Assembly (NCBI GenBank): GCA_905479105.1
Contig: CAJQLE010000002.1
Span: 310,001-374,000, forward strand
Reading direction: 5' to 3'
DNA from: an uncultured Flavobacteriales bacterium
GTDB taxonomy: Bacteria > Bacteroidota > Bacteroidia > Flavobacteriales_G > Salibacteraceae
DNA: 64,000 bases
Part shown: piece by piece, positions 53,939 to 55,535 of the stretch
Layout: each line of letters begins with the position of its first letter
Numbering within the stretch: the stretch's first letter is position 1
The notes under the pieces: generated by a model
The model's input: only the letters and a program-made list of their open reading frames with translations
The model's database searches: none
What the model was told of the DNA's origin: nothing
Made by a program: the position numbers and the translations under genes

Positions 53939-54101
53939 TTTTAGTAGAACGCTAATGAAAAAATGAGGAAATCAATTTACACTATTTTGGCTGCAATCAA
54001 CCTTTCAGAACATAATAAACATCTCTACAACTCAACAAAAATGGTTGGTTTAGGCTTTGACAACTAAAAAATATATTAGTGACTATCACTATTTACAATT
54101 G

Positions 54102-55146
54102 TTAGGCACAATAAAAAGAAACAAAAACGTTAGACAAGAATGACGAAAAGAAACTTTGTGATATTAATGGCTCTCGGGTTTACCTCTATGCTGATAATCC
54201 TTGAATCCTGTGAAAAGGATGATGATATTATTGACTCAGGCAGAACTGCACTTGACCATGCTTATGAATGTGAAGAAGTTTTGGGGCCACTGCCAAAATT
54301 CAGTTGTGCAGATGCCATAGAAGTACCTACAACAAAAAATGGAATCCCAGTAACTTTTCCATCGGGTGAAGAAGGTAATGGTAGCACAAATCCAAATGAC
54401 TGTGACCATCCATGGGCTTTTGGAATGGCTTGTCAAACAGGAAATAAGGTAGGTCGTTATCAAGGCTTAAACTCGGATGGTTCTGAAAACCCTGATGTCG
54501 TATTTATAACGTTTTGCCGTGATGGTGGATTAGGCGTTATTGGACATAAACTGTCGACAGGTGAAACTTGTTTTTTTTCAATCGTTGACGATGGTAACCC
54601 GAATAATTCTCCGAAACCAGGGGAGAATGGATACAATGAAGCATGGATGACTCCAAGCGTTGTAGCTGCTGATAAATGTCAAAATTGTCATATGGCAAGC
54701 CCGTTTTTGCATACACCAGCGGTTGACCAACTAAGAAATCCTGCAGACACATCAGAGTCACTTGTACCATTTACAGGAAACAATCCTTATTCAATTATCG
54801 GACAAGAATTTGATCAGCCACATACTACAAATATTCAGAACTCTTGTACATCTTGTCACCGACCTCAATGCACCCAACACTTTGAGAATTATCCTTTGGA
54901 TGAATTAACTATGCCACCACCATTTCAAAATGCAACTGATTTTGATCATAGTTCAATTTCGGATGCGGACAGACAAGCGATTAGAGATTGGTGTAATACT
55001 TTCAACCTTAAATAAATACTGTGCCTAACAATGGGTATAAAACATAGGGCGGACAGTGGTTTCCGCAAGTTTTCGGCACTTAGCAAGATTGGTTTCGGGC
55101 GGACAGAATTGTACTTCGAAATGCCCTACGTTTCATACCCGAGCCG
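54102..55146 (+). mobile_element. Integron-like gene cassette 1 (lipoprotein gene plus attC-like site)
   Basis: The left boundary is GTTAGGC (54101-54107, fits GTTRRRY). The 12 bases TTGTTAGGCACA (54099-54110) are the perfect reverse complement of TGTGCCTAACAA (55020-55031), which contains the R''-like box GCCTAAC of the hairpin at the right end. In integron cassettes the first six bases are by mechanism complementary to the cassette's own R'' box, as seen here. One ORF fills the segment, starting 38 bases from the boundary and ending just before the hairpin. No integrase is in the window. Confidence 0.65.
54140..55015 (+). CDS. Di-haem c-type cytochrome lipoprotein, cassette-borne
   Basis: The protein has 291 residues. 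The N-terminus has a hydrophobic segment and a probable lipidated Cys24 (LESCEKDDD). Two c-type haem motifs are seen, CQNCH (180-184) and CTSCH (236-240), with Met and His residues around them that could be distal ligands (HMASPFLHTP, HRPQCTQHFENYP, LTMPPPF). At least eight further Cys in the first half may form disulfides. The fold before residue 170 is not recognised. It would be anchored in the periplasm or at the surface and could pass electrons. It is the only ORF in cassette 1. Confidence 0.75.
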   Translation: MTKRNFVILMALGFTSMLIILESCEKDDDIIDSGRTALDHAYECEEVLGPLPKFSCADAIEVPTTKNGIPVTFPSGEEGNGSTNPNDCDHPWAFGMACQTGNKVGRYQGLNSDGSENPDVVFITFCRDGGLGVIGHKLSTGETCFFSIVDDGNPNNSPKPGENGYNEAWMTPSVVAADKCQNCHMASPFLHTPAVDQLRNPADTSESLVPFTGNNPYSIIGQEFDQPHTTNIQNSCTSCHRPQCTQHFENYPLDELTMPPPFQNATDFDHSSISDADRQAIRDWCNTFNLK

Positions 55147-55152
55147 TTGGCG
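55023..55152. repeat. attC-like site 1 (130 bp)
   Basis: The site starts with GCCTAAC (RYYYAAC, 55023-55029) and ends with GTTGGCG (55146-55152), a variant of GTTRRRY. Inside, GGGTATAAAACATAGGGC (55033-55050) and GCCCTACGTTTCATACCC (55123-55140) pair in 16 of 18 positions, with unequal spacers of 3 and 5 bases next to the outer boxes. GGGCGGACAG occurs twice as a direct repeat (55047, 55098). Length, nested arms and asymmetry fit an attC recombination site. Confidence 0.65.
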
Positions 55153-55535
55153 TGCATTTAAAATGAAAAAATTTCTGCTCATATTTCTAGTTGGGATTTC
55201 AATGGGATTTTCTGTTCACGGACAGAACTATCCTCTCTTTGGTAAGATTGAAATTTTTCCAGAAAACCCAAGTACCATAGACTCAGTTGAACTAAGAACA
55301 TGGATGGCAACTCCTAATCATGGCTGGTCGATTGATTTACCGAATTAATGAAGTTCAAATCTGGATATTGAAATGTCGTTTTCATTACGACTAAAAATAA
55401 TAAAAACGTTCGCCAACAACATCTCAAAAAAACAAACTGCGAGAACGTTCAAATAGACCATTTATCTTCCAAGCCAAATTTCTTATGGCTAAGACATTTA
55501 CGGTTTTAAAGCCGCACTAGCCATAGCCAGGAACG
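55147..55535 (+). mobile_element. Integron-like gene cassette 2 (small secreted ORF plus weak attC-like site)
   Basis: The segment begins TTGGCG at 55147 and contains the complementary box CGCCAAC at 55411-55417, as cassette logic demands. The next boundary, GTTAGCA (55535-55541), gives a site of 131 bases, almost the same length as attC-like site 1. The ORF begins 16 bases after the left boundary. The inner arms are weaker than in site 1, so this call is less certain. Confidence 0.5.
55163..55348 (+). CDS. Small secreted protein, probably truncated, cassette-borne
   Basis: The start at ATG 55163 gives 61 residues: a signal peptide (FLLIFLVGISMGFSVHGQ) and a 43-residue mature part with IEIFPENPSTIDSVELRTWMATPNHGWSIDLPN. 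A frame open further upstream only reads through the attC-like hairpin. The mature part looks like the first strands of a larger beta-rich exported protein, so this may be a truncated gene. Function unknown. Confidence 0.45.
   Translation: MKKFLLIFLVGISMGFSVHGQNYPLFGKIEIFPENPSTIDSVELRTWMATPNHGWSIDLPN

Follow-up and report, generated by a model that had tools for sequence, protein, structure and literature searches.

A probable integron-type gene cassette from a capture system native to Bacteroidota, linked to a recombinase without the I2 helix

The 64,000-nucleotide stretch of DNA analysed here (the window) comes from an uncultured Flavobacteriales bacterium, and its segment 54102-55146 is best read as an integron-type gene cassette, part of a capture system that is native to Bacteroidota and employs a recombinase lacking the I2 helix. 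This reading is assigned a probability of about 0.88. At the level of sequence comparison, the system is shown to comprise an integrase, an attI site, arrays of cassettes, a rule of complementarity between the two ends of each cassette, and a precise left boundary that recurs elsewhere in a sister species. That the recombinase catalyses the reaction, and that the folded bottom strand is used, is inferred. The system is functionally integron-like but non-canonical, and is treated as a variant rather than a canonical integron because the I2 helix, membership of the IntI clade and extrahelical bases in the attC site were each tested for and not met.

An earlier note on this DNA had proposed that the ends of the segment follow the logic of an integron cassette, and its description of them proved accurate. 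At 54099-54110 the window reads TTGTTAGGCACA, and at 55020-55031 its exact reverse complement, TGTGCCTAACAA, with the coordinates as the note gave them. Counted from GTT, the left end and the R'' box share 10 contiguous complementary bases, or 12 with the flank, and the chance of a matching 10-mer is about 0.001 (20 in 20,000 first-order Markov resamples, 1.5 kb upstream). The attC site of this first cassette (54102-55146, plus strand, reading TTAGGCACA ... G) spans 55022-55152 and folds on the bottom (minus) strand. It is composed of the R'' box GCCTAAC (55022-55028), a spacer (55030-55032), the L'' arm (55033-55050), the L' arm (55123-55140), a second spacer (55141-55145) and the R' box (55146-55152), the TTGGCG of which is part of the next cassette. 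The 18-base arms, GGGTATAAAACATAGGGC and GCCCTACGTTTCATACCC, are Watson-Crick paired at 16 positions, as had been claimed, and form a stem without a bulge; at both remaining positions the top strand has A:C, and the bottom strand thus a G.T wobble. Unequal spacers, AAT (3 nt) and GAGCC (5 nt), and a cassette ATG located 38 nt from the boundary at 54101/54102 likewise bear out the earlier description.

No second site within the 64-kb window reached the score of this hairpin as an attC-like stem. BLAST found the hairpin as a single copy in its own genome, and many relatives within the order, several of which are arranged as tandem arrays. A hairpin pattern search of the own genome returned chance matches only, and no hairpin family matching the site was found in Rfam. 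The left half of the hairpin pattern of the window was matched exactly in three contigs classed as viral, from a viral contig collection (L056, L057 and L058). Folding of the site with DNA energies gave modest z-scores of -0.5 for the top strand and -1.8 for the bottom strand; such single-sequence folding is weak evidence, and the case is carried instead by the complementarity of cassette ends across whole arrays.

The gene within the cassette (54140-55015, plus strand) encodes a 291-aa lipoprotein with two CxxCH motifs (CQNCH and CTSCH), which is probably a c-type cytochrome-like protein, and to which no Pfam family could be assigned above cut-off. A second and apparently decayed cassette follows at 55147-55535 on the plus strand, with the left end TTGGCGTGC and an R'' box CGCCAAC at 55411-55417. 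Its ends retain 7 contiguous matches and 9/12 overall, with the crossover motif G/TT at 55535. The left arm of its attC site is lost, and the right arm, GCCGCACTAGCCATAGCC, resembles the right arm of one attC site in the array on contig C3 of the same genome. A 61-aa secreted-type ORF, probably truncated, lies inside this second cassette (55163-55348, plus strand).

Contig C3 encodes a tyrosine recombinase of 405 aa (G000:C3:234903-236120, minus strand, equivalent to L009:8904-10121), after which are found, in order, attI and four chained cassettes. The stop codon of the integrase gene opens the sequence TAAAAAATATATTAGTGACTATCACTATTTACAATTG/TTATGCACA, and the first cassette boundary is situated at +33 from it. 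Judged by eye from their translations, the cassette products are two depolymerase-like secreted proteins, another secreted protein and one Fic-type protein. Each left end pairs with the R'' box of its own cassette, three over 9-10 contiguous matches and the fourth at 9/10. In the window, 40 nt at 54065-54104 (plus strand) are identical to the C3 sequence running from the integrase stop codon through G/TTA, the identity beginning exactly at this TAA codon and the crossover falling between 54101 and 54102. This attI copy stands directly before the cassette, so that the cassette of the window occupies a second copy of attI. The locus is not adjacent to any integrase gene, and no integrase remnant was recognised upstream of the attI copy in three frames. 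A short reading frame of the window (...KMVGLGFDN) terminates at the TAA where the identity begins. Cassettes with a partial attI copy attached are known from class 1 and class 2 integrons; there, such copies replace attC downstream of the gene (PMC12901181), whereas the copy in the window precedes the cassette. Beyond the reach of the earlier note were the presence of a matching integrase in the own genome, the attI copy immediately ahead of the cassette, and the departure of both integrase and attC site from those of classical integrons.

Comparison with a sister species provides evidence of movement. Of the 42 genomes of the order, two alone encode the cassette protein: the own genome and G018, which belongs to the same genus and has an isocitrate dehydrogenase with 92% identity. 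In G018 this isocitrate dehydrogenase neighbour is located on contig C16 and the cassette gene, 89% identical, on contig C23. At the DNA level, the two copies match from exactly GTTAGGCACA onwards, with no homology before it, and the match breaks off at the beginning of the attC site, in its arm. The two copies carry different attC sites, that of the window cassette being long (about 122-nt class) and that of the G018 copy (L218:15167-16159) short (about 52-nt class); gene and recombination site have been re-paired between the two genomes. At the counterpart locus of G018, from the isocitrate dehydrogenase terminator to a GDSL hydrolase gene, other sequence is found, starting ...TTACAAG/TTAGCCGCAATTAAAAAATG and holding a short ORF. 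The left boundary at 54101/54102 is accordingly supported by comparison, albeit of sequences alone. The right boundary is supported by site anatomy only, as the attC sites differ and a precise exchange at this end is not shown. The mobility expected of an integron cassette, with the same cassette present elsewhere at a precise boundary, is met between G000 and G018 with an exact left boundary. The earlier note had held that its proposal would fail if relatives kept the segment colinear and if the hairpin were merely a dispersed, non-recombining repeat. Neither is the case: the cassette gene and its neighbour are on separate contigs in G018, with homology from exactly 54101/54102, and the hairpins of relatives belong to integrase-attI-cassette arrays with the predicted complementarity. 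Its proposal of a cassette with integron logic is supported by the relocation in G018, the platform in the own genome and the arrays in relatives.

These arrays were identified by chaining cassettes outward from the integrase stop codon with an author-written script, at loci drawn from the order, from named genomes and from a sample of the class. Among 72 integrase loci, 46 had at least 1.5 kb of sequence downstream, and 29 of these carried at least one chained cassette and 24 at least two. The latter 24 loci contain 96 cassettes with 71 different 7-mers after GTT, and at least nine contiguous complementary bases are shared between the left end and its own right end in 93 of the 96. The first boundary lies 8-205 nt past the integrase stop codon at these 24 loci, as required of an integrase beside its attI, and ORFs are in the cassette sense in 91/93, with a median distance of 39 nt between boundary and ATG. 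Examples include arrays of 10 cassettes in Algibacter onchidii, six in Flavobacteriaceae bacterium S0862, six in Seonamhaeicola aphaedonensis and four in Winogradskyella ursingii. Twenty integrase loci were picked by contig position, irrespective of cassettes, and every one came from among the higher-scoring matches; two or more chained cassettes followed on the 3' side in 11 of them, and the 5' side carried none at any of the 20. Control start points yielded chains of at least two in 10/1492 windows, at least some of these inside real arrays. By the same method, classical IntI loci gave no 3' chain and, as expected, 5'-side chains on the other strand. Some integrase matches had no chained cassette. 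The attC sites in the chained arrays fall mainly into three length classes of about 50-60, 120-129 and 185-190 nt, in steps of ~65 nt. Cassette proteins of 264 aa are 95% identical between G008 and A. onchidii (the second cassette of L104 and the fifth of L142), which represent two lineages, and the homology is limited to the gene.

In their anatomy, the Bacteroidota attC sites meet the requirements of an unpaired central spacer between the R and L boxes (mostly 1-3 and 4-6 nt) and of complementarity between the left end and R'' at the crossover G/TT. The extrahelical base or bases in the L box that characterise canonical attC sites are not met, with no consistent extrahelical base in the Bacteroidota stems. 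Under symmetric scoring, uninterrupted pairing over at least nine positions is seen in 38/50 of these stems versus 3/28 in a classical control set, which itself contains some false sites. The bottom strand folds better in 43/50 Bacteroidota sites, and wobbles favour this strand by 97 to 22, an asymmetry that holds under symmetric scoring; they cluster at stem positions 7-9 and 12-14, with some also at the base of the stem. In classical integrons, strand choice is made mainly by the first extrahelical base (PMC2727003), and the extrahelical bases of attC are docked by the I2 helix (PMC7790495). The attI sites of many loci contain a near-perfect palindrome shortly before G/TT; in L118, L249, L254, L257 and L259 it is about 22-31 bp long, ends 3-7 nt before G/TT, as exemplified by ATAACACCACCGGTGGTGTTAT, and is far stronger than in shuffled sequence.

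The Bacteroidota integrases are about 375-405 aa in length, with the residues of a tyrosine recombinase and a C-terminal (S/N)PLD-type motif that is also found in IntI. The catalytic K and H motifs are separated by 57-59 residues, versus 100-101 in IntI. The I2 region is missing in the alignment to IntI4 (2a3v), and an AlphaFold model (mean pLDDT 81, pTM 0.54) places no helix there, such that the additional I2 domain of canonical integrons is not met. I2 is considered necessary for cassette capture by IntI (PMC7790495), and its absence is a point against the integron reading. The I2 helix and a consistent extrahelical base are absent together; that G.T wobbles, the N-terminal extension or both replace this mode of recognition is inferred. 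A match to the integron-integrase model TIGR02249 splits around the I2 region and remains under cut-off, and one example passes NF040815, an NCBIfam model of XerA type (L118 integrase, 234.9 bits vs a cut-off of 220). The nearest solved structures are XerA-type recombinases (4a8e and 5hxy) and IntI4. Superposition on 2a3v gave Z 19.9, rmsd 4.5, 254 aligned and 34% identity, and the structure comparison covered residues 103-361 only, excluding the N-terminal extension. This extension of ~100 aa (residues 1-100, e.g. in L118:9911-11038) bears a conserved W-Y motif, is weakly DUF5710-like in single members, is predicted as a small α/β domain, and may bind nucleic acid. In a tree built by a quick method, the 30 IntI rows group in one clade (support 100), and the Bacteroidota integrases fall outside it. 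A single clade of IntI and the Bacteroidota integrases is not rejected (AU p 0.445). Common and separate origins are thus not decided by the AU test, and both an ancestral and a convergent relationship appear possible.

The integrase profile was matched at E <= 1e-70 in 198/395 genomes sampled across the class. Half of Bacteroidia is an upper bound for its prevalence, because 11/20 higher-scoring loci showed at least two cassettes, and matches of low score that lack the N-terminal part may represent different recombinases.

The chained cassettes might instead belong to classical integrons, mobilised by a canonical IntI that was acquired or resides elsewhere in the community, with the linked recombinase incidental. 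Cassettes can be moved without a resident integrase, as same-strand hairpin arrays without an integrase match in G029 would illustrate, and IntI1 is able to recombine archaeal attC sites (PMC9668308). This explanation is nevertheless very improbable, as first boundaries follow the stop codon of the Bacteroidota recombinase at 24 loci and never occur on the 5' side at 20, the stems lack the extrahelical base used by IntI, and canonical IntI above cut-off is found in 0/42 genomes of the order and 1/395 of the class, the sole instance being G179:C40:3592-4530 (L269). It is scarcely tenable that the hairpins are dispersed repeats, whether palindromic elements or terminators between genes, with arrays built by duplication or homologous recombination. 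The hairpin cores of ~120 nt are alike between copies, as a repeat would be, but no repeat family would be expected to covary with a gene's opposite end, and 71 different left ends match their own right ends, on which ground a plain repeat family of 120-nt hairpins was rejected. Furthermore, the copy in G018 begins precisely at the predicted cut and has a different hairpin, and arrays begin at the integrase.

An integron-like system might also recombine attI and attC as double strands, in the manner of Xer and with no folded single strand involved, and the missing I2 helix, the XerA-like fold, the dyad symmetry in attI and the double-strand activity retained by the class 1 integrase (PMC4792948) are all compatible with it. 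This mechanism is considered unlikely, although it keeps some weight, as the R boxes and long L stems stay paired across very different sequences, and the wobbles stabilise the bottom strand only, which would be needless in a double-stranded site.

According to the preferred reading, that of an integron-type system acting on folded single strands, a tyrosine recombinase, whose gene lies immediately 5' of its own attI and is oriented toward that site, would insert circular cassettes at the G/TT of attI. The cassette-borne attC site would be a bottom-strand hairpin whose R box is built from the cassette's own two ends. The platform would be that on contig C3, and the window would hold 54102-55146 and the decayed second cassette at the second attI copy. 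The evidence leans, with considerable reserve, towards a second kind of integron across Bacteroidota, in which single-stranded hairpin cassettes are recombined by an I2-less, Xer-like integrase of either pre-I2 ancestral state or independent origin, the strand is chosen by G.T wobbles (perhaps with the N-terminal extension) and not by extrahelical bases, and up to half of Bacteroidia species are involved, this being the upper bound set by the profile.

Integrons are held to have originated with the acquisition, by a Xer-like recombinase, of the I2 helix, which docks extrahelical attC bases (PMC7790495; PMC2727003). Integrons without either feature would be a missing intermediate or a convergent solution, and would make the question testable in the laboratory. 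Gene capture of the integron kind is probably far wider and mechanistically more varied than assumed, because the system is common among Bacteroidia and appears to use an enzyme without a part, I2, that is thought essential in all known integrons. Such integrons would escape surveys that rely on IntI and on classical attC models. Earlier surveys of Bacteroidetes recorded only In0 elements and one complete integron, that of Salinibacter ruber (PMC9024848). No prior description of the Bacteroidota system was found in the open-access literature (without preprints and with few subscription papers), and what was found on Bacteroidota integrons, again without preprints, concerned S. ruber and general statements only. 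If most profile matches are real platforms, a large unread pool of mobile genes exists in Bacteroidota, and it would include lipoproteins, secreted proteins, Fic proteins and metal-related proteins.

Among known systems, the classical integron (IntI1, VchIntIA/IntI4) shares with the Bacteroidota system the G/TT crossover, left ends complementary to their own R'' boxes, R and L boxes separated by unpaired spacers, co-oriented genes in arrays that extend from attI, the recombinase fold (2a3v) and the (S/N)PLD-type C-terminus. It differs in that the Bacteroidota integrase has no I2, carries the N-terminal extension, falls outside the IntI clade and points toward attI, and in that the attC sites have bottom-strand G.T wobbles in place of consistent extrahelical bases. 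In the reverse integron of Treponema the integrase is likewise transcribed toward attI and along the direction of the cassettes (PMC3607928), but the Treponema protein is placed inside the IntI clade in the tree described here. XerA-type recombinases (NF040815; 4a8e, 5hxy) offer the closest solved structures and also have no I2, whereas their archaeal and patescibacterial rows are shorter, without the N-terminal extension, and no 3' cassette chains were found for them. Finally, the CTX-phi type of hairpin integration via host XerCD resembles the present system in its I2-less recombinases and its hairpin without extrahelical bases (PMC4792948); unlike the platforms described here, CTX-phi has no dedicated integrase, attI or cassette arrays.
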